A stretch of DNA of 64,000 bases, taken from the NCBI GenBank assembly GCA_947172415.1, contig OX359191.1, forward strand, positions 8,107,130 to 8,171,129, read 5' to 3'. Each line of letters opens with the position of its first letter. Position 1 is the stretch's first letter. The translations under genes and the position numbers were made by a program. Below the pieces are notes generated by a model, which saw nothing but the letters and a program-made list of their open reading frames with translations, had not been told where the DNA came from and did not search any database. The DNA is from Chondrosia reniformis. Taxonomy: Eukaryota; Porifera; Demospongiae; Chondrillida; Chondrillidae. This document shows positions 15,201 to 52,683 of the stretch, one piece after another.

Positions 15201-15909
15201 AATGGAGCCCATGACCCTCCAACTCCTGTGGTTAATACAGTAAAAATGAAATTAAAATTGATCATAAACTGAAAATGTAAATTATGAAGACAGTATTCTA
15301 GAATGTACAAATGTATTCTGACCTCCTTCAGTGCCTCCCAAATCCGATCCACCCCTGCACATGCAAAACACATTTGACTGTAGAAATACAGTATATATGG
15401 CGTTGTATGGCTCTTTGGTAACACGTGCTGAAAGAAGTGATCACTCGAAATGTCATCCTTCTTTCTATGTCTGGACCAAGGAGTTATAACCACATCAAAG
15501 GGATAATGCATGTTCCTTCCGGGCTGGGAATAGCCTCCAGAATCATATTGCTTCCGGAGCGTCTTGTCTGAAAGAGTCTTGTAAGCTTCATTGAGCTCCA
15601 TAAAATGTTCGTGCGCATCCGGAGATTGATTCTTGTCGGGATGCCTGTAACGTGAAGTAGTCTACAGTTACACAACACTGCGCATGCGCACACAAAAGAG
15701 TTCTCTCAAAGTAAATATCGTCTATAAATAGTCTATGCTTAAACTAACCATTTCTTGGCCAAATTTCTAAATGCCTTTTTGATTTCTCGTTCCGAGGCGC
15801 TTTTACTCACTCCTAAAATACTATAGTAGTCTTTTTTACAGCAAACTAGAATACCATGCAAACTTAAAAGTATCAAACTTAATAGAAGAAATTTTGACAA
15901 AAAGTTCAT
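12273..15909 (-). CDS. DNAJC16: DNAJC16: J-domain protein with thioredoxin-like domains, ER membrane
   Basis: Ten exons keep frame: 15749-15909, 15323-15644, 15022-15225, 14403-14672, 13794-13894, 13518-13713, 13042-13191, 12786-12862, 12533-12674 and 12273-12374, giving 574 residues; human DNAJC16 has 782, mainly from a longer C-terminus. The start [16 protein letters not shown] is a signal peptide. A J domain follows ([20 protein letters not shown]), with its HPD motif split across the first intron. Exon 2 continues into a thioredoxin-like fold with CFAC at the CxxC position, followed by [10 protein letters not shown]. The middle (SGNKPHIVI.., KGCVSIVIP) aligns in order with the human protein. 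A hydrophobic segment [18 protein letters not shown] near the C-terminus is the membrane helix; the acidic tail ends [13 protein letters not shown]. The role is as an ER co-chaperone for Hsp70. It is divergent with SPCS1. Confidence 0.88.
12415..12496 (+). repeat. Dispersed repeat family A, partial copy
   Basis: CAATGGAGAAGAAGAGAAGT through GGATTAGTTCCCT matches the right half of the family A copies at 14083-14226 and 61170-61303. It lies in the last intron of DNAJC16. Confidence 0.75.
14083..14226 (+). repeat. Dispersed repeat family A, full copy
   Basis: The copy runs from GACAAAGATTCCCAGAGTCA through GATGAAGGGTGGAATTCCC and CCCAGTGGAGAAGAAG to GGTTTAGTTCCCTATAGG. It sits in the DNAJC16 intron just 3' of exon 14403-14672. 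An inverted copy sits on the other side of that exon. Confidence 0.85.
14772..14970 (-). repeat. Dispersed repeat family A, inverted copy
   Basis: The reverse complement carries the same landmarks as 14083-14226: GACAAAGACTCCCAGGATCA, GATGAAGGGTGGAATTCCC, CCCAGTGGAGAAGAAG and GGTTTAGTTCCCCTATAGG. It lies in the DNAJC16 intron 5' of exon 14403-14672, so the two copies can pair in the transcript. Confidence 0.85.
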
Positions 15910-26091: not shown

Positions 26092-27025
26092 TTAGATGGA
26101 GCTGATAAATTCGTCATCTTCCTTAGAGTCTGAATATAGTGGATTTCCGAACTCGAGGAAATCTAAAAATTGTTAAAAAGAATTGATCTTTATCAATATA
26201 CGTATATATTGAATCTCACAGTCTATTACATGTACATATTATAGTAGTTAGTTCCAGTATAGTTATAATAGTACGTAACCTGTAAGGTCTATTGGTAGCA
26301 GGTCATTATAAAGTATATCACAGTCTATGTGTTACGGAACGTAAATAAGTCTTACTAGAAATATTAAAATTTTCTACAAAAATAGTGAAGATGTAGGGAT
26401 GGTACAAAAAGTACAGAAACAAGAAAGGATGTTACACAGTGAAGCATTAGCTGTGTATGAATCATACAAGCAAGGGTGTTGCAACATATCCCTACATCTG
26501 GCAGTACTACTGTACTCTATGATATTAAATTACCTCTAACTCTATCTTTATCTGGATCATATACCACTGGTTGTGAATCTTCCACTTCAGTCTTCTTACG
26601 TTCCCTGCGTCTAATAGGATAATAGTGAAGGACGGAATTATTTCTAATATATTTATCAAGTCTGGAAGATTGTCTATTTTTAACAGCTAGTTATTCTCTC
26701 ACTGAATTTGAAAGCTTACAGTTGAATTTCTTTATAAACAACTGTATTTATTAGTTATTAGAATTTCAAAACAACTGCTTAACAATATGCCATCACTGTT
26801 AATTAAAATGGATAACTTATAAGCAACTGTTCACATTATCCACACTACATATGTGTGTCCTAGAGTTTCAAGCTGTGTGATGCACTGGTACTTACTTCCA
26901 CACAAAGAAGAGCACGACAATAAGAATCACTACTACAACAACAATGATAATAATCAAAGGAATTACTACTCCAACAGCAACACCAACTCTCTGTTGCTCC
27001 AACCTTTGACGTTCTGCTACACCCG
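26092..27025 (-). other. SRCR receptor: membrane helix and cytoplasmic tail exons
   Basis: Exon 26896-27025 encodes GVAERQRLEQQRVGVAVG and then about 26 hydrophobic residues (VVIPLIIIIVVVVVILIVVL, FFVW). Exon 26534-26610 gives a basic stop-transfer stretch (RRERKKTEVEDSQPVVYD). Exon 26092-26162 ends DFLEFGNPLYSDSKEDDEFI then SSI. FGNPLY is an FxNPxY signal as used for clathrin uptake and PTB-domain binding, and the final S-S-I fits a class I PDZ ligand. A stop TAA follows at 26092-26094. Confidence 0.9.
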
Positions 27026-30000
27026 CTAAATAGAAACAAACACAAACTTACATAGTTAATCCCTGATTAGCAATTTTTAGAGATCATAAAAACAAGGAAT
27101 TTGAGTTAAAAAACCTAGTGGGGCTACTGCACCTGCATTTGAATTACTTGGCTGCTTTGTTGGACGTATATAGTCATAATCTTAACAATCCTGACCCTTA
27201 AGTATCTTCAAAATTATAAAAAAATTATCTTAAACTTATTGCAGGCCACCATTTTCAAATGGTGGCCTTCAATTGTGGCCCTAACCCAATTATATATCAC
27301 CATATATACATTTGATAAGTGTAACAACTAGAAGTAAGTATGTAAACAATATAGGGGCTGCTGCACCCTAAAATACACTAACCTTCATCATATATACAGC
27401 CATCAGGTGGTAGGTTATCGGCTCCAAACCAATATCCTGTATTTGTAGTAGGGTCAAGTTTACACTCAACCATCCATTCAATTCCTTTTGGTGCATAATC
27501 AGTTAAGCAGGAATATGATACAGATACATTAATATAGTAGGACAGAGCTGGCCACTGATCGTCAGGATACTCATACGTTGGTTCGACAGAGTTTTCAAGA
27601 GTTGGAGCATCAACACATGAAATAGCTGCAAAGAGGGGTCAGATTAGATTGGTTGATTCTTTATAAACAAGACTAAGTATTAGTTTTTATTTATATACTA
27701 TATAGTATATACTTTATTTATAATTCACAGGTTCTTGATTGTTTGTCCTCAAACAAACTTCACTTCACACATACTCAACCTGAAAATACCCTGACATCCT
27801 TCAGGGAGATCTGTGGAGTTAACTAAGGGGTTTGGTGTTTTCTTGTAGCCTTGCTTCATCAATTGTACCTGATATTATTATTTATTTGCCTATTCAAAGG
27901 TTCTATTTTAGCTCTCATCATAAGTATACCATTATCATGGGGAATAGGAAGTCGTTAATCTGGATAACCATAATCTGAAGGTTGTGCAAGACAAGAAACC
28001 CACCCAAGCTTCTGATCTCATATACGTATGTAATTAAAAAGGCGTATCACACAAAGATAACATTTTATAAACACTTACGCTGGCAGGACATATCTTCAGC
28101 AGTCCACTCTCCATTGGAGTGATCACACAATCTCATGGATGCTCCAACAGGCTCATAAGTCACATCACATGTCAGTGATTCAAACTGATTATGGTTTTCA
28201 TCAGTGCCAGTGGAAATGGTGCCAAACCTGACTTCTGGGTTGGCCGGACACGGCATCAAATTGGCTATAATGAGTACAATGGCACTTTGAGCATCAATGA
28301 TGGTCTCAACAATTGATAGAAAAGAATGACATTATGCATTAATATGTATACAAAAATGGATCCTTGTTAATCAACTTTGTCTCCTCCAAGATTACTAAGA
28401 CATGATAAGTGTCTGAGAGAGACCCTAAATGATGCTACATTACGTAGCAAGGTAAACAGGCACAGAAATAAAATAGTAGACCTACGTATGTAGTTCACTT
28501 TCTATTTTGTGCCAGGAAAGGCTACAGTGCACTACAAATAAGTGGCCCATGACCAGGTTGGTATATTAGGTAGTTCTGAAGAACTCACTTCCACAATTCA
28601 AACCAACTGGATCCCCTGAACATGACTCCAAAAGAGAGTATCCACAACTTGTGAGATGGTCTTCATTTCCATCACAGAAAAATTCCCCAATTCCAAGTGT
28701 TAGAGGTCTCTTCCAAGAAGGACTGGAAGTTTTGATTCCTTCATGATCAAATCCTAACTGCTTACATGCAACTGGATTGTCAGTAACCAAATTCCAATCG
28801 TCCTCACACACCCCCAGCCACTCCCCATGGATGCAGACTTCAATATAACCTCTTCTTTCTATAGTAGAACCTGTAAGTCTTATATCACCATGAGTGCATA
28901 CACCAGTACCTACATATGTACATATCAGAAAAGAATGAATTAATGTAATCTGTAATCATATCCTTTTGATTAGTATCACTGTTGGAACACACAAAAGGAT
29001 TCTCACCATCGTCCATTCTACAAATCACTCCAGCATCATTGTTATGGTCACAATTTGTAATGTCTTCTCCAGTCAAATATGGACATTGGTGTAGATTGTT
29101 CTCGTTTCCTAGGCAACCGACTGTTGTTATCAAAATTGGCAACCCATATCCACCTGGAAACCCTACATAATTATTTTCAAGTTTTTATGAACTGTTCAGT
29201 TTATGGAATGTGAAGAAGATATTGTTTACCAAGTACAAAATATTTGCAGTATATACTGTAGAAATAATATTGTTGCTATATTTGTAGGCACCATTACACC
29301 ATGAAAGTATAGACCACAAAATGTACCTACATGTTACTTATACGACAGCCATACATTGTATTGTCACTGTATTGTCAACTCTCAAGGTATTAATGTAATG
29401 GAAGAATTCCAGTGAAAATATTTTCATGTAAAGTGCACTGAGTGAAATAATTCCCCATACATACATAATATTGGGTCTTCTGCAAAATTTATCACACATT
29501 GTTTTTACAGTACTATTATGCTGACATACTTCCACCATTGAAAGGAGCATTATGACCAAGATCATAGGTTTGAGCACTGGTATATCCAAGTGATTTGCAC
29601 GCCACCTCTGCATCAGCCAGACCCCAATCTGCACTACATATTGTACCCCACTGGTTGCCAATGTAGATGTCAATTCTTCCTTCATTTTCTGTCTCACCAC
29701 CAACAAGACGAAGAGGAGGTGGAGGGGGATTGTAATCTGAAGCTGCATGAGAGAAAAGGAAGTATTTCAGTGTGTATATATACACCCTGTATGTATGATA
29801 GAAAATGCTGAATCAGCTGAAAATTAATTGTTTAAATGTAGTTATATTATGAATTACTAGTTATTATCTAGGTATGTAGATAAATTCATGATAAAAACAA
29901 ACAAACTGTTGTTCAATAATTTCCCTTATGGCTACTGTGTGAATTTGCTCACTATCACATATGACACCAGCAACCTCAAAAGAGAAACAGTTGTGGTTTC

Positions 30001-33000
30001 CAATTCCACCATGATAACAGAGATCAAGACGCTCTTCTCCACCCTGACATTCTACATCATCCAATAGAAAACCTGTACCAGTTCCAAAGCTTGAAAATGA
30101 TGTTGCTTGGAGAGCACCATTCTGATATCCCAGCTGTCTGCATGCAACATGAGCATCGGCAATATCCCAAAAGTCATCACAAACTGGACCAGATGCCCCT
30201 TCGTAATTGATGTACACATTTCCATATGAAGCATTACCACCACGTAATTCAATAGTAAATTCTGTGTTGAGTTCAGTTTCTACAAAAAATGTGAATTAAA
30301 AGCAGGATTTTATGATATTTAGTATCACGGGTTGCAGAACAAAACTTAAAAACACTTTCATTGGAAAATCTAACCCCATACAATGGGGAAAATGGCTTTG
30401 TTATACAGCTACGTATACTTTAACATTGTTACTTTCACTTACACATCTTGTAATAATCTGTAGGTACAAAGGGTAGGCATGCACACTCACCTGAGCACCT
30501 AACCCAGACATCAAAAAAGTGACTGCAGAATGAACCTGTGTATATGGTACACTCGTTAAGGTGAGATTCAGTACCCTCACACTCATAGTCAACCAGTGGT
30601 CCAGTTCCAAAGTCAAGAAGACTGAAAAATACTGAACCAAATTCAACTGCAGCTGCAAAACCCAAATGTCTACAAACAACTTGGGTATTTTCAAAAGTCC
30701 AGAAGAAACCACATGCAGATCCCCAACCTAGGGTCTCCACGTACACATCAACACGACCATATTCTGGTCCTGGAACCAGTCTGACATCTCCTTCATTTGG
30801 AAGACTTGGACCAGAAGCATCTGTAATTAAAATAAAATGAACCGGTCTATTATTATATCTTTGGTAGATGAAGTGTTAGTGTTGTGCTGTATACAATTCA
30901 CATTTTAATGAAAGGGGAAATCCCAAAAACAGCTATCTGGCCCAAAAAAGCAATTCTAATTCAAAGCTCAATAGACTTGCCCTAAGTCTCATAGGTTTTG
31001 TGTGTTTTAATTTTTAATCTATTACGTACCGTATAGCGGGAAAATTTGGTGAGGACTTAAATTTGGCGATTTGGCGAGTAGTTTGAAGCTCGCCAAATTT
31101 AATTCTTTGCCAAAGCATGATAGCTGCCAATGCAGCTATCGATTTCGAACACGTAATGGTACCGTCGTCCATTAAACAATTAAGCCAACGATTGCATCAT
31201 AGCTATGGGGCAATCTGCCAAATATAAAACTCGCCAAATGCTAAAATTGGGCATTTCACCAAATATATTGCCCGCCAAATGTTCCCACTATACGGTATAT
31301 TCTTTATGTATCCTTAGTCCTTATGATTGATAACCACATAGGAATGATTATTCATGATCTTAATATAATAATAGTACACTCACTGAGGCAGACCACTCCT
31401 GCAACTAGGTTGTTGGTGCAAGTTGTATTGACAGGTGCATCATACATGCAATCTGACAGTCTTTCCTCTAATCCAGTGCAGGAAACGGAACTTAGCCATA
31501 CAGTACCATTGGATGGAGACACATAATGGAAGTATTCAGATGTTGTTGACAAGTATGAAGCCTCGTAGCCCAGCTGTCTACAAACCACATTAGCTTCAGC
31601 TCCTGTCCAACTACCAGGGCAAATACCTCCCCAAGTGCCATCGTTCAAAACAAACACCACGCCCTCACTTTCAAATTCCCCATGCTGGAGACTCACACTT
31701 AGTGGATGCACTCGGTCACCTATAAATAACATTAATATATATTATATGCATTATATAATATCATCATTCTAACTATGTTGAATTATTAACGTCAGATAGT
31801 TTATATTGTCCCCCTGCTTAACATTATGAGATCCATTGTATACGTACGTACATAGAATTTCATGTAGCATACATAATAATGTTATGTACATACATTGGCA
31901 TCTGCTAGAAGACTATTTTAAGCAACCTCTGCAATCAATTTTATTAACTCACGGTTACATCTAAGAGCTACATCATAGGTATGTTGGCAGCCTTCCAAAC
32001 TCATGGGTGTCAGGGTACAAGAAGCAAGCGAATATTCATTTCCACTACAGCTAATACTATCAGGAAATATGGGAACAGTATCTGCAGCTACTTCAAACAA
32101 TGGATCTATGACAATAATATCTTTGACACCATTAAAGCCTGCCTGTCTACAAAACACATCTGCTGCAGCCCTGTTAATTGTGTTATTGCAAAGGGTATGC
32201 CATTGGCCCATAGCTAAGACCTCGGCTCTTCCTTCACCAGACACATATCCGGCAGACAAACGAACACTGGCAATTCTAGGCGCAACAACATCTATTGCAA
32301 TTATAAAAGAGAAAAATACTTCATAACATACATAATGTACGTATGTACGTATATACGTAGTATAGTAATGTATATATACAGTAAAACACTACAATTGTTA
32401 CATATGTGTATATTAAACGTTTCAAGATGTAAAATTGGGATTATATATATATAGTGCAAAGTTTAACAAGTCTTACCAGCACAATGAAGTTGAACATCTT
32501 CAGCGTGATGGCAAAAGTAGAGACTAAAGTCATCTTCAAAAGGACAGTCAATCAGATAACTCTCATTTCCAATACAACGCAGTGAGTGCATGTTAATTGG
32601 TCCAGCTGGTAACTCTTGTCCAAAGCTGTCGTCCCAGCTTACAACATCAGCAAATCCTAACTGCCTGCAAGCCACAAGTGCATCATTGCGATCAAATCCA
32701 TCGTCACACACAGTTCCCCATATTCCCCTGTAATAAATTTCCAGTCTGCCTTCAGCTTGTGAATCTCCATCCACGAGTCTCAAATCACCATTGGTATATT
32801 CTGTAGAATCTATTAGTCATAGGAAACATCGGTATTAATAGCATGTACAAACATGATACACGTACGTAGCTACATATATTAGCACTGCATATACTTTTAA
32901 CAAATTCACTTACATAATGGATCATAACTAAACATCTACTACTAAGTTTAATGAACTTACCGACTTTACAGATGACACTGGCATCATAGGCATGTACACA

Positions 33001-36000
33001 GCCTCCTACCTCTCCCCATGGAGGTATCATGCAATCTGTGATCTGCTCTTCAGATCCATGGCACTGAATATCTCTCAACCAAATTCTAAGATCTGTAGCT
33101 TGTCCAAAAATGGCATTATGAACAGCCCTAGCTCCTTCTACAGGATATTCCAATTGCCTAGCAACAGATAGGGTAAACCAGTTAGACTTGTATATACAAT
33201 CATCAGTAGTAATTCAACTGGGTAATCAAGGTACCAGCTTGTCAAAGAAACCAGTTGGTCTAGTATTACAAACAACGAATTCAAAAGACAACTCTTTGGT
33301 TCAATTTGTGACCCAACTGAAAAGAAACCAAAAAGAGTCCAAACATCGGCCATTTTGTGATATTATAATATTGTTTGGATGGAACATCTTTCAACTAGTT
33401 GAGCACCAAAAAAACATTTTTGGTATTTCTTTTGATCTCGAGGGTCTTAATCACTGACTGATGGATTGGGTCTCTAGTTGTTCCTGTTGAAGATCACGAA
33501 ATTGAAATGGGCTAAGGTGTCTATAAAGATATTCATGCAATATTACCCACTATCCATTTAGTAACCATTATATAGACACCAATTTTTTAACTCTTACCTT
33601 TTAACCTTCTACGTAACTATTTTCCCCATATATGTATGCATATTACTGTATCAATGCTGGTAGTATGGTCTGGTAGCACTGGTGAAGGCCCACTCCCAGC
33701 CAGCTAGGTTGTGCACCTGCATCTGGGTGGACGGCCTGGTAGCCTTGTAAGTGGTGAAGGCTTATAGGCGCCTATGTGCAGCCATGTACTGGTTGGCATC
33801 TTTTTGTTTGCTTTTTGTATGCCTTGGGCACATTAATAATAATAATTATGATAACATACGTATGCACTATACATAAATATAAAATGTATGATATTTGTTG
33901 TGTGCAAACATGGTAAGTACAACATACCTGCAGATGACTTGGGCATCAACATCATCAAAGAAGATATCACAGATGCTGCCCCATTCCATTCTGTGAAATA
34001 TTTCCACTCTGCCTTCTCCCTCCACTCTACCATTTACAAGGCGAACAGCTCCTTCACCAAGTGTAGCTAAGACAAAATATAACAAAAGCATAACACACAC
34101 TGACATAAATAAATATTCAGCATATAAATGCTACTAACTAAAAATCAAAGACTATCGACTTATGAATCAAGTACAACGATGTATCTTTTAGTTGTGGCAA
34201 ATAACTAACTTTCACAGATGACTCCAGCATCCCTATTGTGAGTGTCACATCCTGTACTCAGGAAATTACTACCCCATCCAGGAAAATGGCAGTCCACTAG
34301 TCTCTCTTCATCACCACTGCAAACAGTATCACTCAGCCAAACAGGTCCACTGCCGGGGCCAAAGTTTGATCCAGTAGTCGGGGTAGATACACCTAATGAA
34401 AAATTGAACAATTATTTATATATTAATTACATATATATAAAGTGGAAAATAATTACCAATTACACACAGAAGGCCCATTCAACTATAGTGACAATACAAA
34501 GCTATTTTCTAACTAGTTTCACAAATTGCAGGTTACTTTGCTTATAATGTATCTGATTAACTTGCCCCTTAACTCTCAATTCAAGCCATTTCACTGCAAT
34601 TGCATTACTCTTACAAGTCATCTCTCATTCAAAATGTATAGGATTCGCACGTTACAAATATGTAAATTAAATAAAATAAAAATGAAGTGTCATCAATAGT
34701 ATCAGTATAGTTTGAATATTCCCGGTCACTCACAAACATTTTAGGAACAATCTCAATTGGTTTGATTTTGTAATTAATCGCTGCTGTACTATTCAAATAC
34801 TATGCATCAATTTTTACATTTCCTATACCTGGATAGCCAAGCTCATTGCAAACAACTTCTGCATCTTGTACACTCCAACCAGAGTCACAGATTGTTCCCC
34901 AAGTTTCATCATAGAAGATTTCAACACGACCTTCTGTAGGCAGAAGTCCTCCCACTAGTCTGACACTCAGAGGTGCAAGGTTAGGTGGCAGCACATGGGG
35001 GGAGTAGCAGGACACACCTACATCCTCACCATGGAAACAGTTATGGTTGTTCCATCCGAGGAAAAAACACTGCCACAGTTCTTCCTCGTGCCCTTGACAA
35101 TCAAGATTATCCATCAAAATTGACCCAGTTCCAGCACCAAAATAAGCATTGTAGTAAAAGGCAGTAGAGCGATCAAATCCTAGAGATCGGCAAATAACAT
35201 CAGCATCTTGAAGAGTAAAGAAGTCATCACACACAGTTCCCCACTCTCCACCAAAGAACACTTCCACTCGTCCTTCATGGGAGCCAGTACCATCAACCAG
35301 TCTGATGTCAAAGTCTTGCAGTACATTGGCTGTAAAGCATTAGAAACAGACAATGAATTTGATAACTGTATACAATATATGTTATAAATTATTATCTTTG
35401 GGTTCATGGATTACAGTATTGAGATTCCCTTGTTACTCTCTTAGCAGATATATACTGTATTATAAGTACAGTATAGATACATAAACTCACTAGAGTTACA
35501 CTTTACTGCAACATCTAAACTGTGAGTGGCATATGTGCTTCCTAAGCCAGGATGAGCACATAACCCAATGTTGGCTTCATCACCAGTGCATTCAATATCA
35601 TCCAGCCACACTGGTATAAAAGATACATCAGCTGGCAGATCAAATGGTGAGAAATAAATGTTCTCAGCAAAGAGGTTTAGTTGTCTACAAACTACTTCAG
35701 CATCCAGGAGATCAAAGTCAACTATGCTGACAGTTCCCCATTGTTCATTATAAAGGATCTCAAGGCGACCGTCTATGTTATTCAAAGTAGGATCATCAGT
35801 ATTGACCAGGCGAACTTGGAGATTCAGGACACCAGGAACAACAGCTGATTCTGTGATAGAGCAGGAAACAAACCTCATAAACAACAACACACAACAAACT
35901 CAAACAGTCATAGACCCATAAACAACAACACACAACAAACTCAAACAGTCATAGACCCATAAACAACAACATACAACAAACTCATACAGTCATAGACCCA

Positions 36001-39000
36001 TAAACAACAACACACAACAAACTCAAACAGTCATAGACCCATAAACAACAACATACAACAAACTCAAACAGTCATAGACCCATAAACAACAACATACAAC
36101 AAACCCAAACAGTCATAGACCCATAAACAACAACATACAACAAACTCAAACAGTCATAGACCCATAAACAACAACATACAACAAACTCAAACAGTCATAG
36201 ACCCATAAACAACAACATACAACAAACTCAAACAGTCATAGACCCATAAACAACAACATACAACAAACTCAAACAGTCATAGACCCATAAACAACAACAT
36301 ACAACAAACTCAAACAGTCATAGACCCATAAACAACAACATACAACAAACTCATACAGTCATAACTCAGAGAGACAATTTCACTATTAGACATATTATCA
36401 AATTCTTGGAAGATTTTCTTAATTGATGACATTATAGTTATATACGTAGATGACTTTAGCATATTGCTAAAATTACATATACATACCTGAGCACTCTACT
36501 CCAGCATCATAAGAGTGATCACACAATATTGTGCTAACTTGTCCAAAACCTCTACTAGGACATTCGTGGAGGTTACTCTCATCTCCTCCACAAGCTACAT
36601 ATTCCAACCAAATACGTCCAACACCATTTGGTACATCTGAACTATGGAGAGGTCTGACGGCACGGGCAAAACCAAGCTGTCTACAGACCACCTCTGCATC
36701 ATTCCTGTCCCACTCCCAATCACACACTGTACCCCATTCTCCGCTGAAATAAACTTCAACTCTACCATTTGTGTTAGAAGTTCCATCAACGAGTCGGACA
36801 TGGTAATTCTCAGCATCTGTATAGGGCATAGGAACAAATGATTAGGGAACTGTACATTAAATATGTACTGTAAAATACACCAAATAACTAATCTATTTAC
36901 GCACATATGTAGCATCAGTGGTAGTACAACCATACCAGTTCAATACTGAATACCTTAATATACGTACGTATATAGCATAATAAAATGACCATACACATAT
37001 AAACAAGTAATTCGAGTAAAAAAACGCAGGGAGCGGCACACACTTGAATTACTTTGCTATTTTGCTGGGTTTACACGTATACACTCGTAATTTTAACAAT
37101 TCTGACCCTTAAATATCTTCACAATTATAAAGAACAGCAGAAAATAGAAATAAACTTATCATGAACTATACTATAATATACATATATATCAATCTATAAG
37201 ATTACACAACCAGAAGTAAAAATGAAAACAATATAAGCAGGCCCTAAAAACATCACAATGTTTACGTACGTACATATGTTACACCTTCAGTACACATGTT
37301 GTAATCAATTGGAAATGCCTACCATTGCATACAAGTCCAGCATCTTCTGTATGGTAACAATTTGATGTGTCTCGGTCATAGTCACAACCCTTAAAGTCAC
37401 CTTCCTCGCCTAAACAGTTCATATGTGTGAAATGAATTGGACCTTCTCCTATTCCGTGAGTTCTAGCATCTGTTGCTAAAGCTGCTCCCTGGAAATGTAG
37501 GTAATCACAGGCAACTTTGGCATCGTTAATGTCCCATCCATCATTGCAGACTGTACCCCAAGAACCATCAAGATAGACTTCAACACGCCCATCATGAATG
37601 TTTACACCATCTGACAATCTGATAGTAAAGTCTTCGGGGATCTTATCAACTGCAGATACAAATTTTGAGATTAAAGGTTAACAACAGCAGGTGCAACAAT
37701 ATCTGGAGGCATTAAACTGGGTAACAATGGAATAAATAGAGATTACCTATAACAAATTATATTTAGAATATTGATTCAGGTGTAATTCAATTCCATAACT
37801 TACCTGTACAAGAAACTCCGGCATCTTCAAAGGAGAAGCAGTTGTGGTTGTACCATCCATTATGTTCACATTGTGCTAGATTAGTCTCATTCCCCAAGCA
37901 TTCTAAATTATCAAGCCATATGACATCATCATTGCTACCAAATGCTGCAAATCCAAAGACATTATTGACTCCAGAATGGCCAAGCTGTCTACATATAACT
38001 TCTCCGTCTTCAATACCAAATCCATCATCACATATGGAGCCCCATTTACCACCAAAGTTTACTTCCACTCTTCCCTCTCCTTCTCTTGTTCCCTCAACCA
38101 ATCTAACATCAACAGGTTTCTTGGCTATGCACACAAAAAATCAAACATACGTAACTGTATGTATAAATATACACAGTGCTAGTATTTCTAAAGCACTAAA
38201 AATATTCAAATGGCTCCTAGGAGGGTCATATGGGTGCTAATATTGATAATAATCAAGAGAGTACATATAAGTAGATTCAATTGAGCATTATACTATACTG
38301 TACTTGTATGATGATGATTGGATCTAGCCAATTAACATGTAAACTAGTGAGCAGGGTATGAGAAATGACATGCCTTAGTCCTCTAATAATGTGACCTTAA
38401 GATATCCCTATAAGTTTCATGCATTGCAATAAATAACTCCACACTATTCTACGCTATCCGGCCATTTATTGAACATGTCATCAATGTGACATCATTAATG
38501 AAAGTATACACTACGTACTAAAACTTAGTCATTTTTAGTGTAGGTTTCAGGGTCACTGAGGAAGGGTGAAATTCCCTGAAACAGCTGTCTGACCAAGTGA
38601 ACTACATATAGTACGAGGGCAATTTGTAATTACCTTCACATGTGACTGCAATGTCTTCAGTGTGAGTGCAGTCATGGAAACCCCAGCCATTGTGGTTACA
38701 CTGGTTCAAGTTCTCTTCATCACCAGTACAAGTTAGAGTATCAAGCCAAATAGGTTCATGGTCTTGGCCAGGGCCAAAGGGCTGGTCAGCAAAAAAGAAA
38801 AATCCACTTTGTATCAGCAGGTCTGTTTGTTCCGGATCAGTTATCCCAAGTTGTCTACAAACTACATCTGCAACTCCTACAGTAATGAAGTCATCACAGA
38901 TGGTACCCCAGGCTCCATTGTAGAAAACTTGAACTCGACCAGTGAGGTTTGTACCAGATGAACTACCAACAAGACGAACGGTGTAATCATCAACGTCAGG

Positions 39001-42000: not shown

Positions 42001-45000
42001 TTAAGTATGCCTATAAAATGGACATTGACATTGAACAATTAAGATACTGCAGAAGTTACCTCCACACTCCACTCCAGCAACCTCAAAAGAAAAGCAGTCA
42101 TGAATGCCAACACCGTTATGAGGGCACTCAAGCAGTGAACTTTCATTTCCAATGCATTCCAGATCATCGAGTTGGACACTCCCAATTCCATTTCCAAAAA
42201 AGCCAAATGTTGTAATTCTTCTAACATCACTATAACCAAGTTGTCTGCATACAACCAAAGCATCATTTCTGTCCCATCCATCATCACATACAAAGCCCCA
42301 TTTTCCTTCAGCATACACCTCAACATTTCCTTCATTTTCAGTTAATCCACCAATTAACCGGACTGCTCCCTCTTCAATGAATTCAGCTAACATAAAGAAA
42401 TTAAGAATCTGGTAATTGAAGCAGCAGCAGCTTCTAATATATACATACTGCTATATCAATAAATAATAATTAAGCTTACGTTGACAAACAATCCCAACAT
42501 CATATTGATGGTCATTTCCACAAAAGCCATTAATATACCAATCACACTCTGATATAGTCTCTTCATCCCCAGTGAAACAAAACAGTGAATCAAGGTGGAT
42601 TGGGGTTGAATCTGTAATAAATATAAAAGTTTACAAAAAGTAAGCTTCATTAGAAGATAGAAAATTCATAATAAAAATCAACTGCAGCTGCTGATGAAAA
42701 TGTGTAATAATAGTAAATCCAGATATTAAAGATAAAGGTTTTCTTACCTGGAGCATGCCTGAAGCTCTGTAGCTTTACAAACTCCCATCCTAGGTGTCTA
42801 CAGACTACTCTGCCCTCAAAGAATCCATAAAATCCAAAATAGTCTGAACAAATGGTTCCCCATGATCCATTCAAATACACCTCAATTCTTCCCTCATATT
42901 GGCTTGAACCATCAACAAGGCGAATTGGTACTTTCCCAGTGTCTGTGATAATCAAAAGAGAGACAAATTGTGCACAATACAGTGTTTCTATAACATTAAG
43001 AGGTTTTCATGCATATGATAGAGATTCTTCAAAAGACTTTGTGCTGTAATTTCAAAAGTAATTGTACGTACACTATGGGTTGGCTGTATTATATACTTTA
43101 GTTGCAAAATTATTAAGTTAATTTATCAAATGCCAAATATGGAATAGAACTAAGGTCTGCCAAATATGGAAATATAAGCCTTTGTGTATTTTGAAGGCTT
43201 ATAATAATAACATTTTCGTAAGGCAGTACAGTATCCATCCATGCTTCTATTTAGACTGATACATTAATTAACTTCTTTGGTTATTCAGAACATTAAAGTT
43301 TACAGACGTTTAATTATTAATATTCTCAGTATATTCAGATCGACTACTCCAGACTCAAAAGTAGTTAAGATCGACTGTGTATACCCCTATCCCTTAAAAT
43401 AATCCTAGGGAGAACACTGGTATGGGATAAAGCAGTAGGGAAACCTTATTGTAAGATACAAAACAATTTTGCAACCTAATCAGACTCATACGTATATTAC
43501 TTACCATTACAAATGATTCCTACATCCTCAGTATGGGAGCAGTCATGATGACTGATGGGGTTAAAGCCACAATCTTCAATGGCCTCTTCGTCCCCTCTGC
43601 AAGATATACCATCAAGCCAAATTGGCTGTGATTCAGCTCCTGGTCCAAATTCATCAGTTAATTCAGTTGCTACTTCTTGGAACCCAAGTTCCCTACACGC
43701 CACCATTGCTTCAAGAGCTCCCCATCCATCATCACATACTGTACCCCACTCGCCATGGCGATTGATCTCAATACGTCCTGAATGATCATTAGGTCCATCC
43801 ACCAATCTGATTGGATAAACTTCTTCGTCTAAATAAGGAAAATGAATCTAACATGAAACAGTGCTTGGAGCAGATTATTTGTCCACAATATTAGAGTTTT
43901 TATGGATGTTAAAAGGCTGTGTAATCACTTTAACACAAATCTGGTTAACTGCCCTCCTAACATTGGCAATCTACTGAATGTAAGTATGTCTGATCGTTTT
44001 TTGTAACATATTTGGTATTCACCTGTGCATTCCAGGTATACTGCTTCATTAAAGCAATTATGATTTTCCCATCCATCGTGCAAGCATTGAAAAAGGTTGG
44101 TTTCATCTCCATTGCAACGAACATTATCAAGCAAATATTGATAACCACTGTCATCCACAGAACTAGTAATGTTGTATGCTCTTTGATGCCCTAGCTGACG
44201 ACAAGCTACATCCCCAGCAGGATAAGAGAAAAAGTCATCACACACCAACCCCCACTCTCCATTGTAGTAAATCTGAAGAATACCACTATAGTCGTTGTCA
44301 CCATCAACTAGACGAACTGTAGAGTCTCTATTGCCACATTGTATCCAAACATCATCATTATGGGTGCAATTTCCAACTTGTCCCCACTCATTGGCTGGGC
44401 AGTCAGCGAGATCCGCTTCCTGGCCAGTACAAGCCACCTCAGCTAGCCAAATTGGTCCAGCAGCAATGTCAGTATCAGTATAAAAGCTTATCAAGTCCCC
44501 ATACCCCAATTGGCGACACGCTACAGTGCCATCTTCAAATCCAAAGTTTTCCATACACACAGTTCCCCATGACCCACTGTGGGAAATTTCAAGACGCCCA
44601 CTCCTGAATCCTCCCTTTTCTAAGCGGAGCTCTTTCTCGACAGCCAAGGCTATTAAAACAATGAGGCAATAACGTTACTAACTAGCAATGTGCCAGACAT
44701 TCATGAAACACAGTGTGAGTCAAATGTCTATGAGAAAACAATATACGTGCCCTTCAGCATAAGCAATTTGAAGGTTTCAATATGCTTATACGTATGTATG
44801 TATGTATCTGTCCAGTGTGACAAATGGCCCAAACTTACGGGAACACCTCAAATGGTAGTCTCCAAAGAATGAAGTGCAAGCAGTGTCTATGTCATAATCA
44901 CACAAATTGATAGATAACTCATCTCCATTGAAGCAAAACAAATTGGTCAGCCACAGATTATGATTGTCAGGTTGTGGCCCAAAGAAGAGGAAACTGCTTA

Positions 45001-48000
45001 TGGCTGGTCCATAGCCAAGCTGTCGACAGACAACATTTCCCTCAAATCTATCTATGAGGAAGTCATCACATACTCCACCCCACCTTCCGTTCCAATAAAA
45101 CTGCACTATCCCTTCATATTCATGATCACCACCATATAACCGAAGTGGAATGTCAGCTGAACAATAGAAAAATGAGAAAAATAGTACTTTTGTAACAATT
45201 TAGCCAAATTTCTTTAAGCATTCTACAAGCATTATGGATGTACATTAATCCATTAAATATTTCTAAATAGATGAGACAATTAACTTCAAAGCAAGTTAAA
45301 TAAGATTGCTACTTACGTGTACATCGTACTCCAGCAGCCTCACTAGTGCCGCAGTTATGGGTACCAATTCCGTTGTGAGGGCAGTTAAACAGTGTAGCCT
45401 CAGTTCCTTCACAATGTAAATCATCCAGCTGAAAAACACCAGTAGCAAATCCAAATTCTCCTTGATCGGTAGCATTTGCTGGTCCAAAGAATCCAAGCTG
45501 TCTGCAGACCACTTCAGCCTCTTCATCTCCCCAAGAATCATCACACACGGCACCCCAAGCACGGTCAACATAGACTTCTACATTTCCTTCAAAGTCACCA
45601 GTTCCACCGACCAATCTTGTCTTAGCTATTCAAATGAAAACAAATAAAATGGATGCTGAGACAATAAAACAGTCTAACTACGTACATGTACATAAAGGAG
45701 TAAATATCTTACATTTTGTATGGTATAGACTAACTTACAAAATTATTGGTAGATTAACTTACGAGAGCAAACTACTCCAGCAGCACTGGAAACAGAACAA
45801 TCCTGATTGGTGGAGAATCTGTTATAATTACATTCAGTGAGGTTCCCTTCATAACCAAGGCATCTGACGTTATTCAACAGAAAACTAGTAGTAGAAGCTA
45901 CATCTCCAAATTCTGAATTAACTGTAGCTCTAGAAGCATCAGGGTATCCAAGCTGCCAACAAACCACAAAGGCATCATATTCTCCCCAATCATTGTCACA
46001 AACAAAGCCCCACTCTCCATCAAGGTAAATTTCGACATTTCCTTCACTTTGTATATCTCCACCAGACAAACGAACAGCACCATTCACAATCACCTCAGCT
46101 ACAAATAGAGTAAGATTTGTGTACGGGGTATTAGTATATACTTCTATGTCTTCAGTCATTGCACAGTCTCTAAATAACATTAAAATGTTCTCCATGTGAA
46201 ATGTATCAAATGTCTGAGCTGGGAACACAACTTACGTGTACATATGACTCCCGCTGCCTCAAAATTGAAGCAGTCATGTGATCCTATTCCACCATGTGAA
46301 CATTCCAGAAGATTCTCCTCAGAACCACCACAACCTACTTCATCTAAGTGAATAGTACCAACTCCATTTCCAAAGAATCCAGAAAGAGTAGCTTCAGCAT
46401 CTCCAGTTATTCCCAATTGATTGCACACGACCTGGGCATCCTGCTTTCCCCAGGCATCATCACACACAAAGCCCCAAGTTTCATTTACAAAAATCTCAAC
46501 ATTTCCTTCATATTCTGTTGTTCCACCCACCAAGCGAACATCACCTTCTTCAGGTGGAAGGTCTAGAGTAAATAAGTAAGTATGACTATATGCTAGAGTA
46601 CACCATAGATACCACACTCAATAAAAATATAATTCCTTAGGGAAAGTAAAAGCAATTGAAGCAATTGCAACAGTACCAACCATAACCAATGGCACACATT
46701 TCATTCTAACTCTCCACTCATCTTCCCTTTACTTCAGTGATTCCATATTAGGATATTTACTGTACAATTCAGACTTACCAGTGCACCTTACACCGGCAGG
46801 CTCAAAACTGAAACAATTATGGATTCCAATTCCATCATGTGGGCAGTCCAAAAGTGTAGCCTCTGTACCAGTACACTCTAAATCATCCAATTGAAAGTCC
46901 CCTGTTCCACTTCCAAATTCTCCGAATTGGGTAGCTTCTGCAGTGCCTTCGTAGCCAAGTTGGTTGCAGACCACTGTGGCCTCTTCGACCCCCCATAAAT
47001 CATCACACACCAAACCCCATTGACCACTTGCATATATTTCCACATTTCCTTCTGTCATAAGGGTCCCTCCTACCAAGCGAACCTCACCTTCTTCAACCAC
47101 TGTTTCTGCAACCCATAAAATCATTAAAAATGATTAACATTAGAATTATTATGCAACCCATGAAAATCATTAAAATGACCAACCTTAGAATTTATTTATT
47201 ACATAGTTTATAATTTAGTTAGATGGTACTTTTATTGTACCTGAGCAAATGACACCTGCGGCCTCAAAGCTGCCGCAGTTGTGATTTCCTATTCCATTGT
47301 GTTGACATCTTAAAAGTGATGTTTCATTTCCAAAACATGACAGGTCATCTAAGTGCAGTGTGCCTATTCCAAATCCAAATTCAGATTCAATAGTTGGCAA
47401 TGCTGTTCCAGTGTATCCAAACTGGTTGCAGACTACATCTGCCTCTTCTTGTCCCCAACTATCATCACACACATAGCCCCATTCACCATTGACATACACT
47501 TCAACATTTCCTCTAAATTCATCACTTCCGGCTCCTACCAAGCGAACAGCACCTAGAGGTGAATAAACAAATAATAACAGAATATCAAGAAATAAAGATC
47601 AAAATAGATATGTTAGCAATGGCATACATTTAGAAAATTCTATAAGGGGCACTGGGCACAGATGCCTTTTGGTGTATGAGGGATGTACGTATATAGACTG
47701 GCTGATTACCTATATAGTTACTATCAACTAGTATTTTGACTATACTCTATATTTGTATTTTGACATCATTCTTATTGAAGTACCAAAATTTTAAGAAAGG
47801 GGAAAAGATTCAAACTAGGGGTGATACCCCCTCCTGCTCTCCCCAAATACATCCCTTGTTAGATTAAGGGTTCTCTTAACATACGTATGTATCCCATCAG
47901 ATCAGTGGTACTATTCACTAAAAGTAAATTTGATGTCATAATTTAAGGAATATACAATAACAATAACACTAACGTTCACAAACTACTCCAGCAGCTTCGG

Positions 48001-51000
48001 AGCTGAAACAGTTGTGAACACCAACTCCATTATGAGGACAGTCCAAGATAAATGATTCATTTCCATCACAAGCCAAGTCATCCAGAAGAATATTTCCCAC
48101 ACCAAATCCAAAGGAACCTGATCCTCTGGCCTCAACAGCCCCTGGAAAACCAAGTTGATTGCAGACCACATTAGCCTCTTCCATTCCCCATTCATCATCA
48201 CAAATAAAACCCCATTCTCCATTGAAATAAATATCAACATTTCCTTCATGTTCAAAAGATCCTCCTGCGAGTCTTAATGTTCCGTCTTCAACATAGTCAT
48301 CTACAGTTTTGACAGTTGACAATCAAGTTGAATCACAACTTAATTTTTTATACAATTTTAACTATTTAAGATTTTCCTAAAGAGCTACAGTACCGTCTGT
48401 CCACTTACTGTAAATCAAATCTACCTAAAGTGAAGTTTTGCCTTATTCCAACATTTTAAAAGGCCCTTGTAAATTTAATGTACGTACAGTATTTATCTGT
48501 ATAGAAGCCGAGCTCAAATAAAGGCTGGATCTTGTTTAGAGGCCCGGATCAGCTGGGCTATTCTTAAATAGAAGCCGGGTCTTAAATAGAAGCCAGGCTC
48601 AAATAGAAGCTGATCTCGAAAAGCGGCCGAATTTGTCAAATCAACATGCCGGTCGAGGTGCGAACCGATCACGACGTCTGACCAGTTTCCGCTGCAGTAG
48701 CGATGTCAAAGCGAAAGTCCTACAATGTCTCCGTCAAGTTAAAGGCCATGGAGTGTGCTTTGAATATCTATACCAATACCAATTTTAACATAGAAGCCCA
48801 GCTCGAATAGAAGCCAGGCTCGAATAGAAGCCCAGCTTGAATTGAGGCCGGGTCAAATATGACTGGAACGAAATAGAAGCCGGGGCTTCTATTCGGACAA
48901 ATACGGTATACAAATGACAAAAACCATATACTGTATATGTACTGTATTTTGAATTGGTGAATTAGTTACTATATAAGGAATCATACTGCAATTTCTTGAA
49001 TACACAGATTTGCAGTCTTTTGGAGAAGGAAATATTTCACCAGTTACATAGTCACTATCAATAAAAGTTATCCATGGAATCAAGGCTTATCTTCTGTATG
49101 ATAGAAGGAGGTTTTTGTTGCAGTTGATTTAAACATTTCATGTTGTCAATCACAACATTTTGATTTAAAAGAATTCTAATAGTTTAAATACTCTCATTAT
49201 TCAAGGGTTTTAATGCACCCAGATGTACAAACACCGCTTTACTTTTTTTATAAAAGCTGGGTTACACAGAAATGGTAAACAGTAGTATCAGTTAGAATAT
49301 ATACATGTAAGTAAATAATACAACTCAATCCATCTATGTTTATATACATACATACACTGACACAATGCAACCAGATCAAGTAGCCTCTTACCAGTGGAGC
49401 AAATCACACCAGCAGCTTCAGAGCTGAAACAGTCGTGGACACCAATTCCAGAGTGACGACAGTCAAGGAGACTACTCTCATTGCCATAACATCCCAGCTC
49501 ATCCAAGAGAAGAGTTCCATTTCCAAATCCAAAATGAGCAGTGACTACAGCTTGGGAAATGCCTGAAAACCCCAACTCCCTGCAGGCCACATCTGCCTCT
49601 TCTTGTCCCCAACCATCATCACACACATAGCCCCATACACCTCCAGCATAAACTTCAACATTTCCTTCGCCTAGAGCAGCTCCTCCTACTAGACGAATTG
49701 GACCTAGAATGGAAGTGAAAATATGTAAATATGATTATACTACCAAAACTTACTAAATATTTTTGCTATATGATAACTATTGGTTACTGCATACTCACGT
49801 TCACAAACTACTCCTGCTGCCTCAGAGCTAAAACAGTCATGAATTCCAATCCCTCCATGTCCACAGTCCAATAGAGTATTTTCATTTCCAATGCAATCCA
49901 ACTCATCTAAAAAGACATTGCCCATTCCATTTCCAAATTCAGCTCTTGACGTAGTCAGCACAATCCCAGGATAGCCAAGCTGCCTACATACTACCATAGC
50001 TTCTTCTTCTCCCCATGAATCATCACATATAAAACCCCAGATCCCATCTATCAAGATGTCAACATTTCCTTCTCTAGGCAAATTTCCACCAACTAAACGA
50101 ACATCACCATGTCCATCTGTAAAAGGATAAGAACAGGTGGCATTATTATCAATCCAATTTGACCAAAACTAGCTCCTTTTATTCTAATTCATTTTTATTT
50201 TGCCTAATGCCTGCAAGTTAACAAAGCCAACTAATGCTATAAGTTGGATCAAAATAACACCCATTTTATTTTGAAAAACACAAAGCTCTTTTCTTCTTAG
50301 CTTACCAGGGTAAGAGCAGATTACACCGGCAGCTTCAAAAGGTCCACAGTCATGAAATTCAGATGCGGTGCAGTCTTGAAGGGAGGTTTCATTTCCAAAG
50401 CATTCCAAATTATCCAGATGGAGAGTTCCATTCCCAAATCCAAATTGAGCAAAGGAGAGGGCTTGGGCAGCACCAGTGTAGCCTAGCTGGTTGCAGACTA
50501 CAGTTGCTTCCAACAAATCCCAATCATCATCACACACATAGCCCCATTCACCATCGATATACACTTCAACATTGCCCATCATATTATCGCTTCCATTTCC
50601 AACCAAACGAACAGTGGCTAATAGAGCATAACAATAGTAAAATATCAACTAATGCAAATAAGAAGAACTGGGAAGAACTGAAAATGTTGTGTTATTTCAA
50701 TGAACTTACGATTGCATATTACTCCAGCAGCTTCAAAAGAAAAACAGTCATGATTACCCACACCAGAATGTGGACATTCAAGTATGTTTGCCTCGTTTCC
50801 CACACAATCAACTTCATCCAATAGAAACAAGTTCCTATCTACTGGTCCAAAATCAGGAGAAGCAGTATCTGCTCCTGGAAACCCAAGTGAATTGCAGACA
50901 ACTGTACCATCTCTTATATCCCAACTATCATCACAGACAGGTCTCCATGTAAAATTAAAAAACACTTCAACATTTCCTTCAGAATTAGTCCTTCCACCAA

Positions 51001-52683
51001 CCAAGCGAACATCTCCTTCGTCTACATACAAAGATTTAAAGTTTAAAGTATATTGAACAGTGGTAGACATGGTAAAATAACTGAGCTGGCATGCTTACAA
51101 GCCTAAAATGGCGGTTACATTAGTACTATCAAGGTAGGAATATCTCTCGAGTTTTAAGCCCTTTAATTACCATTGATGTCATTTATTTAGAAGGATGGTT
51201 AAACTACCTCAATGATGAAATGTGCTCTTTTCGGACACCTGATGGTGTACTACTACAAACCTATATCCTGAAATATGGTCACATGAATTTAATTGTTTGC
51301 TTTTGAAAGTGTAAATAGTTTGTTTTTATTGATAATAAATTGTTTATCCATTGACAATTAGGCCACCCAAATACATTTCTGATCATTGTAAAATGAAAAT
51401 TTTTGGAGCAACTAGAAAACATCGTTTATATAAGTAACAATAAAAACTTGTATTTTGAGTTTAAAAACTCGTGGGGCTGCCGCCCCCCGAATTAATTCGA
51501 ACTACTTGGCCGTGCCCAAGTGTTTGCATGTTTGTGATCAACATACGTAAATAATTCATGTTAAAAAACTTACCATGGAGTGGCCTCACTCAAGTACCTT
51601 GGGCAAAAATCATCCAAAACTATATTTCATAGCTTAATTACGATACTCACAAATATGCAGAGGTATGCTTTATGGCGTAGCAAATTGTAATACACACATC
51701 TTAATTTTTCCCATTATCCTATTACGAACACTATAATATAATAACACAAATAAAAATCGGATCTCGATTTAACCATAAAAATCGTGTACTTCGAATGAAA
51801 ATAGATTTGCATCAATAACTTACCATACATAAATTCACGGATATATTTCTTGTGTTAGGGTATTAGTAATAACCGCAAACCCACACCAAAAAGCTAACCA
51901 GAAACACAAACTTTATTGAGGTGGCCTTTGATCAATGCTCCCCTTTTGGCAACGAAGATGTGTCACGTGACCTCTTTAAGAGTTCCGTATTCTCCGTTCG
52001 GAGACCAAAATATTTTGATGGGTTTGTTATAGAGAAAAAATTACTTATTTCTAACTTTGCAGTCACTCACATTTCTTAGCCATAGACGAGTAGTTAAGCG
52101 CATATTCTAGTATACAGCAGTATAGATTGCAATATTGCCGTTTTTCGTGCACTCTAAACTCCGATAATTCGGCTAGCGCAAGACATTGATGCATACGTAA
52201 CTCCTATATAAGCGTATGAAAGTAGGTACCAATACCACATTACAATAACTGTAATCAATCAGAGAATAGGTGAGATGGCTACACGCGTGCAATAGAAAAG
52301 ATACCAAAGTACCCATGCATCTACAATAAATTATTAAAATATGAGAAATAAACTTTGATGAACAAGTATTTATTACACTACGTATACGTTCTGGAGAATT
52401 CAATCAAATAAGTAAATGAAGGGAAGGTCAAAAGACGGTCACATGTGCAAAGGTTTAGGTGCAAATTGGCGACTAAGGTGAACGCATATCAAAGCACCTC
52501 TAACTTTGAACTTTCATTTATTATTATATCATTCGCTAAACCTTAGACTCTGTCAAATTCTGGAAGGTCACAAGACGGCCCCACAGGCACTGAACTACTG
52601 GTATCATTCTTACCTTGAGCTGATGCTATTTTCGTTACTAGCAATACCACGACAGCCACAAAGAAGCGACTAGACTTCGCCAT
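26092..52683 (-). CDS. Giant SRCR/sushi transmembrane receptor, 37 SRCR domains
   Basis: Forty-five exons keep frame over 26.6 kb and sum to 12,882 coding bases, about 4,293 residues. Order: signal peptide, 37 scavenger-receptor cysteine-rich domains, two sushi (CCP) domains, one membrane helix and a cytoplasmic tail of about 46 residues. The SRCR units show the usual pattern: VRLV.G....EG.VE...., GEWG.VCDD.W, A.VVC.QLG., .LDDL.C.GNE..L..C.H.G and HNC.....AGV.C. Most carry six cysteines. Sponges are known for such SRCR-sushi receptors; one in Geodia was proposed to take part in cell aggregation. The extracellular size suggests adhesion or microbe binding, which is inference. Nearly every domain is one exon with phase-1 ends, so skipping any of them keeps frame. 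Separate entries give exon coordinates. Confidence 0.95.
27101..27365 (+). repeat. Dispersed repeat family C, copy 1
   Basis: This receptor intron (27026-27382) contains GAATTACTTGGCTGCTTTGT and TTAACAATCCTGACCCTTAA, then AACAATATAGGGGCTGCTGC. The same order appears at 37010-37270, and the first part again near 51460 and 58420. Confidence 0.7.
27383..28264 (-). other. SRCR receptor: two sushi (CCP) domains
   Basis: Exon 28079-28264 encodes MPCPANPEVRFGTISTG through SLTCDVTYEPVGASMRLCDH to GEWTAEDMSCQR, a four-cysteine sushi unit. Exon 27383-27625 encodes ISCVDAPTLENSVEPTYEY through VSVSYSCLTDYAPKGIEWMV and ECKLDPTTNTGYWFGADNLP to DGCIYDE, a second, longer one. Both exons are phase 1 at both ends and lie between the last SRCR domain and the membrane helix. 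Confidence 0.88.
30905..30990 (+). repeat. Dispersed repeat family A, diverged copy
   Basis: TGAAAGGGGAAATCCCAAAA then ACAGCTATCTGGCCCA corresponds to GAAGGGTGGAATTCCCAGAA and ACAGCTGTCTGGCCCA of better copies. It lies in a receptor intron. Confidence 0.55.
31027..31297. mobile_element. Miniature inverted-repeat element in a receptor intron
   Basis: The left end TACCGTATAGCGGGAAAATT and the right end, whose reverse complement reads TACCGTATAGTGGGAACATT, form terminal inverted repeats about 271 bp apart. The interior has several GCCAAAT blocks in both orientations and no coding frame. The TACCGTAT end is shared with the element at 48485-48908. Confidence 0.85.
33660..33835. repeat. GC-richer insert in a receptor intron
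   Basis: The 770-bp intron inside SRCR domain 30 (33158-33927) holds a stretch with much higher GC than its surroundings, including two related pieces GGTAGCACTGGTGAAGGCCC and TTGTAAGTGGTGAAGGCTTA. It looks like an inserted repeat of unknown type; no coding frame is convincing. Confidence 0.4.
35876..36365. repeat. 41-bp minisatellite, about twelve copies
   Basis: The unit CATAAACAACAACATACAAC plus AAACTCAAACAGTCATAGACC repeats about twelve times with few changes (CACAC for CATAC, CATACAG for CAAACAG). It starts next to the exon of SRCR domain 27, in the intron before it. No spacers separate the units, so it is not a CRISPR array. Confidence 0.95.
37010..37270 (+). repeat. Dispersed repeat family C, copy 2
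   Basis: TTGAATTACTTTGCTATTTT, TTTTAACAATTCTGACCCTT and AAACAATATAAGCAGGCCCT follow the same order as 27101-27365. It sits in the intron between domains 25 and 26 of the receptor gene. Confidence 0.7.
38545..38605 (+). repeat. Dispersed repeat family A, short copy
   Basis: CAGGGTCACTGAGGAAGGGT through GAAATTCCCTGAAACAGCTG and TCTGACCAAGTG matches the family core. It lies just 3' of the exon of SRCR domain 23. Confidence 0.7.
39137..41926 (-). other. SRCR receptor: domains 17 to 22, second copy of a six-domain block
   Basis: Exons: 41597-41926 (17), 40805-41452 (18 and 19 fused in one exon), 40343-40663 (20), 40068-40256 and 39654-39785 (21, split), 39137-39463 (22). Order, fused exon and split exon repeat those of domains 11 to 16. 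Matches include DHEYEGRVEVYFEGEWGGIC, EKELRLAGGEFRSGRLEI and ESQYEGRIEVYVDGKWGTIC. Confidence 0.9.
42060..45156 (-). other. SRCR receptor: domains 11 to 16, first copy of the six-domain block
   Basis: Exons: 44839-45156 (11), 44023-44649 (12 and 13 fused), 43505-43828 (14), 42748-42942 and 42480-42611 (15, split), 42060-42386 (16). Matching partners of the second block are DHEYEGIVQFYWNGRWGGVC, EKELRLEKGGFRSGRLEI and SSQYEGRIEVYLNGSWGTIC. The exon pattern single, fused pair, single, split, single is identical. Confidence 0.9.
45317..51021 (-). other. SRCR receptor: domains 1 to 10
   Basis: Ten single-exon domains: 50710-51021, 50306-50617, 49799-50116, 49392-49703, 47974-48300, 47241-47552, 46779-47105, 46236-46562, 45763-46098 and 45317-45625. 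They are the most uniform of the array, with a recurring ending of the type CPHNGIGNHNCFSFEAAGVIC, pointing to recent unit duplication. Domain 9 has CWQLGYP where the others have C(R/N)QLG. Domain 6 has CNQFGY. Confidence 0.92.
48485..48908. mobile_element. Miniature inverted-repeat element in a receptor intron
   Basis: The left end TACAGTATTTATCTGTATAG and the right end, whose reverse complement reads TACCGTATTTGTCCGAATAG, are inverted repeats continuing into AAGCC. Inside are many copies of AATAGAAGCC(GGG/AGG) motifs and a GC-rich middle (near 48640-48700), possibly captured DNA. It occupies much of the 1.1-kb intron between domains 4 and 5. Confidence 0.85.
51455..51545 (+). repeat. Dispersed repeat family C, partial copy
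   Basis: GTTTAAAAACTCGTGGGGCT through CGAACTACTTGGCCGTGCCC matches the left part of family C. It lies in the first intron of the receptor gene (51022-52613), which otherwise holds AT-rich sequence without a clear frame. Confidence 0.6.
52614..52683 (-). other. SRCR receptor: signal peptide exon and start
   Basis: The exon encodes MAKSSRFFVAVVVLLVTKIA followed by SAQ, a classic signal peptide with a likely cut after ASA. It ends in phase 1 before GTAAGA and joins in frame to GDVRLVGG of domain 1. An upstream in-frame ATG at 52725 would add 14 residues ahead of the hydrophobic core; I prefer the ATG at 52683 because it leaves a normal signal peptide. Confidence 0.9.

Follow-up and report, generated by a model that had tools for sequence, protein, structure and literature searches.

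A giant gene for a predicted SRCR membrane receptor, apparently intact and carrying CCP-like modules, in the sponge Chondrosia reniformis

Sponges are rich in SRCR domains: 296 SRCR genes are reported for Amphimedon (PMC10855680), 2,166 SRCR-like domains for Stylissa carteri (PMC4772301), and over 600 SRCRs, of which some carry Sushi repeats, for a Halichondria transcriptome (PMC8242945). A 64,000-nucleotide stretch of the genome of Chondrosia reniformis (contig OX359191.1, positions 8,107,130 to 8,171,129; hereafter the window) raises the question of whether a long row of SRCR exons makes up one very long receptor or several genes, and of what such a protein could bind. In a limited search of the literature on SRCR proteins and scavenger receptors of C. 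reniformis, none of the titles listed concerned this gene, and a prior report is possible.

Gene structure and the question of one gene or several

The minus strand was read over 54000 to 25001 and splice candidates were enumerated for each SRCR exon. The resulting gene model runs from an ATG at 52683 to a stop codon that ends at 26092, and its 45 exons splice into a single open frame (CDS 12,930 nt; 4,309 aa) in which the sole stop is the terminal one (Table 1). In genome coordinates the gene occupies C3:8133221-8159812. All 44 introns have GT-AG borders; 42 are in phase 1 and two in phase 2. Their median length is 194 nt, and two exceed 1 kb (1,592 nt, the longest, and 1,091 nt). The initial annotation had placed a 37-SRCR gene of about 4,300 residues at 26092..52683. 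Its borders proved exact, and a profile built from the window recovers the 37 domains. We conclude from the sequence that this giant gene, predicted to encode an SRCR membrane receptor that also has CCP-like modules, is real and apparently intact.

Table 1. Features of the 37-SRCR receptor gene, in window coordinates.
Exons	Feature	Position	Strand	Evidence
1	ATG and signal peptide MAKSSRFFVAVVVLLVTKIASAQ	52614..52683	minus	gene model, signal-peptide scan
2-11	SRCR domains 1-10; exact cation site 2 in 9/10	45317..51021	minus	profile, alignment
12-17	SRCR D11-D16, block copy 1; D12+D13 in one exon, D15 over two	42060..45156	minus	
18-23	SRCR D17-D22, block copy 2; D18+D19 in one exon, D21 over two	39137..41926	minus	
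24-40	SRCR D23-D37; D29, D30 and D36 each over two exons	28589..39011	minus	
41	CCP/Sushi-like module 1; 19.8 bits (cut-off 20.7)	28079..28264	minus	Pfam
42	CCP/Sushi-like module 2, divergent; 14.0 bits, E 0.069	27383..27625	minus	Pfam
43	Single membrane span	26896..27025	minus	gene model, span scan
44	Basic part of cytoplasmic tail	26534..26610	minus	gene model
45	Cytoplasmic tail; FGNPLY, SSI at the C-terminus, stop	26092..26162	minus	gene model

The reading frame alone is indecisive on the number of genes, since 37 of the 39 SRCR exons in the model are symmetric phase 1, and scans for signal-peptide exons and membrane-span exons were therefore run on the gene's own strand. Exon 1 was the one signal-peptide candidate with a phase-1 donor, and no such exon was found within the array. 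A phase-1 acceptor accompanies only two of the nine hydrophobic stretches above threshold, namely exon 43 and a stretch within exon 18 that is out of frame and lacks basic residues after it. A hydropathy scan of the protein gave two peaks alone, corresponding to the signal peptide and the single span. The signal-peptide scan can detect gene starts, because in a 200 kb SRCR cluster on C3 it returned 11 candidates, one peptide recurring at four places. The span scan of that cluster, which required an acceptor plus two or more basic residues, returned one candidate; the cluster is no control for spans, because exon 43, with one basic residue, would fail this filter.

A single signal-peptide exon and a single credible span exon argue for one gene. 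It seems improbable that the stretch instead contains more than one gene, or a single gene expressed mainly as shorter secreted or membrane isoforms. In favour of such a reading, skipping any of the 37 symmetric SRCR exons preserves the frame, and two introns are longer than 1 kb. Against this stand the outcome of both scans, the short median intron, and the absence of SRCR domains on the opposite strand among the matches listed from the window profile search. The earlier claim of a single very long SRCR membrane receptor is thus supported by the predicted gene structure, with its one frame, one signal peptide and one span.

Several other features occur elsewhere in the window. An oxysterol-binding-protein exon (PF01237) is found twice on the minus strand, at 20758-21240 and 25097-25210 (56.4 and 47.3 bits); one copy lies just downstream of the receptor gene, and the two could be tandem genes or alternative exons. 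A DnaJ exon (PF00226, 42.9 bits; 15164-15661) and a reverse-transcriptase fragment (PF00078, 44.1 bits; 1774-2322) are also on the minus strand. GC-rich minisatellites at 59369-59876 (25 bp x 20) and 63475-63890 (30 bp x 14) lack stops in several reading frames simultaneously, giving rise to misleading long ORFs.

SRCR domains, cation sites, CCP-like modules and tail

The SRCR profile was built from 12 seed domains of the same window, and the weakest of the 37 domains, D37, scores 42.3 bits (i-Evalue 5.2e-15). Ten of the 45 exons were given to Pfam, and PF00530 exceeded its cut-off in all eight SRCR exons among them, which places the domains in the SRCR superfamily; the remaining two encode the CCP-like modules. 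The six cysteine columns of group A are complete in 33/37 domains of the alignment; the fifth cysteine is displaced in D15, D21 and D29, and D27 lacks two. In D27 (35498-35785, minus), the two positions were lost together. By the usual disulphide pattern they would be partners, so that one bridge may have been cleanly lost. SRCR groups are also told apart by an exon criterion. Here 32/37 domains lie within one exon, whereas most linked SRCR domains of Amphimedon are described as having three exons each (PMC10855680).

In SRCR8 of DMBT1, the site 2 cation is held by D1019, D1020 and E1086, and changing D1019 or D1020 abolishes the binding of three ligands (PMC7043408). We set the corresponding positions by motif on the 37-domain alignment, with the DMBT1 sequence itself outside it. 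The DMBT1-type site 2 (D, D, E) is exact in 20/37 domains, and a fuller site 3 pattern is present in 11/37. Exact site 2 declines along the array from the N-terminus (9/10, 8/14 and 3/13), a gradient with p 0.003 in a permutation of mean position that uses no zone borders. Fisher's test of the first against the last zone gives p 0.003 as well; the limits of the three zones were chosen once the alignment had been inspected. The pattern of keeping and losing site 2 is the same in both duplicated blocks, which is non-independent evidence, because common descent would yield it.

Two CCP/Sushi-like exons that were absent from the initial annotation separate the SRCR array from the membrane span. 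Both score below the Pfam Sushi cut-off, the second weakly, and all 20 PDB matches listed for the two at E <=1 bear complement-protein names (best E 0.005). Their structure models are of low confidence, with mean pLDDT 43 and 59. A query made of the CCP-like modules, span and tail recovered its own four exons in the genome, followed by 49 places with weaker matches; the strongest of these (25% identity, E 3.2e-6) falls within a lengthy open reading frame on C7.

The single span is followed by a cytoplasmic tail of about 49 residues that ends in ...VRDFLEFGNPLYSDSKEDDEFISSI. FGNPLY fits the FxNPxY motif that endocytic receptors carry in their cytoplasmic tails; among 200,000 shuffles of the tail, 24 carry FxNPxY and 503 carry NPxY. 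PTB domains, the readers of NPxY signals, exceed the Pfam cut-off at seven places in the genome, one of them with an internal stop. The initial annotation had proposed both an FxNPxY endocytosis/PTB signal and a C-terminal PDZ ligand. The former is present, rare by chance and accompanied by PTB exons in the genome, and the uptake itself is what we infer from it. As for the latter, the SSI end is there and resembles a class-I PDZ ligand, but 2.8% of tail shuffles give such an end, which puts it within chance, and a ligand function is at most weakly indicated.

Searched against the genome, the tail exon matched itself alone; no other gene shares it, so that conservation lends the FxNPxY motif no support. 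An FGNPLY-tail pattern gave eight genome matches against two for the reversed control. Six frames were inspected among the seven other matches and none resembles this tail, leaving the idea of a tail common to other receptors of the genome unsupported.

Growth of the array

Across all domain pairs the mean identity is 40.6%. D11-D16 match D17-D22, in order, at 62, 54, 66, 61, 76 and 57% (mean 62.7%), a block mean reached in 0/20,000 permutations. Five of the six pairs are reciprocal best matches, the exception being D16/D22, both of which are closer to D7. The exon lengths run 318, 627, 324, 195, 132 and 327 in the first block and 330, 648, 321, 189, 132 and 327 in the second, and both blocks contain the same fused domain pair and the same split domain. 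Judged by these features, D11-D16 and D17-D22 are a duplicated six-domain block. The dN/dS of the block pairs is about 0.14, a rough value because the synonymous sites approach saturation (pS 0.72, with no finite dS for one pair). Near-saturation together with this ratio suggests that the duplication is old and that both copies are apparently constrained.

Of 48 DNA self-matches, the 15 longest include no pair of domain exons above 76.8% identity, the rest of these 15 being an intron repeat; short stretches of 31-45 nt between domain exons reach 84-87%. With this ceiling, recent copy-number instability of the array is disfavoured. The genome also holds an array of 25 SRCR domains at C3:6337203-6350581, repeating roughly every 545 bp, in which 24 of the 25 exons are at least 96% mutually identical and the first is more divergent, with identity down to 70%. 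Variation in domain number among alleles of the 37-SRCR gene is less likely than in that array, because the domain exons are so much less alike. The C3:6337203-6350581 array is the better place to seek such variation.

A 41-bp tandem repeat at 35876-36363 (about 12 copies, 98% match) occupies the greater part of intron 27 and is likely a length-variable marker. The 200 kb at C3:6205001-6405000 contain 120 SRCR matches, with a longest same-strand run of 25. Counted by hand, C3:6397918-6410573 has about 24 matches and C8:5433491-5455199 has at least 23; these are matches with gene borders unset, and the two search lists behind them cover the best 150 of 893 and of 796 candidates, so the genome may well contain a longer array elsewhere.

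Known SRCR systems and a proposed function

The 37-SRCR gene is a large but recognisable representative of a class of receptors described before in sponges as well as in other animals. The Geodia cydonium receptor (Blumbach et al. 1998) is said to have 14 SRCR domains and six SCR modules, against 37 SRCR domains and two CCP-like modules here. It is described as a putative aggregation receptor with SRCR and SCR (CCP) modules in the membrane (PMC4557014), and in this module description it resembles the product of our gene, a predicted sponge membrane protein with an SRCR array and CCP-like modules. The SRCR array and one span of this module set are present in C. reniformis, and the CCP part is represented by modules below the cut-off.

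CD163/M130, of which a membrane-bound form exists, is a tandem SRCR uptake receptor. Domain 7 has its best PDB sequence match in this protein, with nine stretches matched. CD163 differs in these nine stretches and in belonging to SRCR group B (PMC2906472), whereas the sponge gene has 37 six-cysteine domains. DMBT1 (SALSA, gp340) shares the tandem SRCR arrangement and, in 20/37 sponge domains, the same cation-site residues (PMC7043408), but it is secreted (PMC5435793) and its human alleles carry about 7 to 20 SRCR domains (PMC4851238), whereas the sponge protein has a span and a tail. Cnidarian SR-I-like sequences are reported with up to 23 SRCR domains (PMC5119243). The initial annotation had considered the domain count to be above known arrays, which did not hold: SRCR proteins of the sea cucumber Holothuria glaberrima, as described in a preprint, have 1 to 51 domains and up to about 5,981 residues (PMC13228809), ruling out a record length. 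Those proteins resemble ours in being very long and of the six-cysteine type (group A); they come from an echinoderm, and the likeness is one of length and domain type.

We favour, with a probability of roughly 0.55, the reading that the gene encodes a type I receptor for cation-dependent, multivalent capture and uptake. One gene would yield a 4,309-aa protein in which a signal peptide and 37 SRCR domains are followed by two CCP-like modules, a span and the short tail. Its N-terminal, membrane-distal SRCR domains would bind polyanionic ligands, such as microbial surfaces or matrix, via Ca2+ at the conserved site, and many of them binding at once would make the binding tight. The C-terminal SRCR domains, 10/13 of which lack an exact site 2, and the CCP-like modules would serve mainly as a long stalk, while FGNPLY may recruit PTB adaptors and lead to clathrin uptake or phagocytosis. 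The array would have expanded long ago, as exons and blocks were duplicated within the gene, and then diverged under purifying selection.

Adhesion receptors also use NPxY motifs, and this favours an alternative that we regard as possible though doubtful, in which the protein would be a cell adhesion (aggregation) receptor, its array binding the sponge's own aggregation factor or matrix and its tail providing a cytoskeleton link or turnover. The Geodia receptor has the same kinds of modules, placed in the plasma membrane, and Geodia aggregation is described as Ca2+-related (PMC4557014). The sequence gives no pointer to an aggregation factor over microbes. Self-recognition and the sorting of microbes, put forward in the initial annotation, would be candidate roles. 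Returning to the capture-and-uptake receptor, its furthest extension, which we hold to be rather unlikely, is an ancient, fixed and functionally zoned molecule with a multivalent, cation-dependent head kept at a distance from the membrane by a long stalk of domains without the binding site, by which a symbiont-rich sponge would select particles for uptake.

The age of the array, the old six-domain block duplication and the graded cation sites are the novel parts that merit specialist attention, and one genome holds both an old, diverged SRCR array and a recently amplified, near-identical one. Sponges have hundreds of SRCR genes, which are thought to help tell microbes apart. Here the domain borders are exact and a binding zone and an uptake signal are predicted, so that distal and proximal domains are directly comparable by expression.
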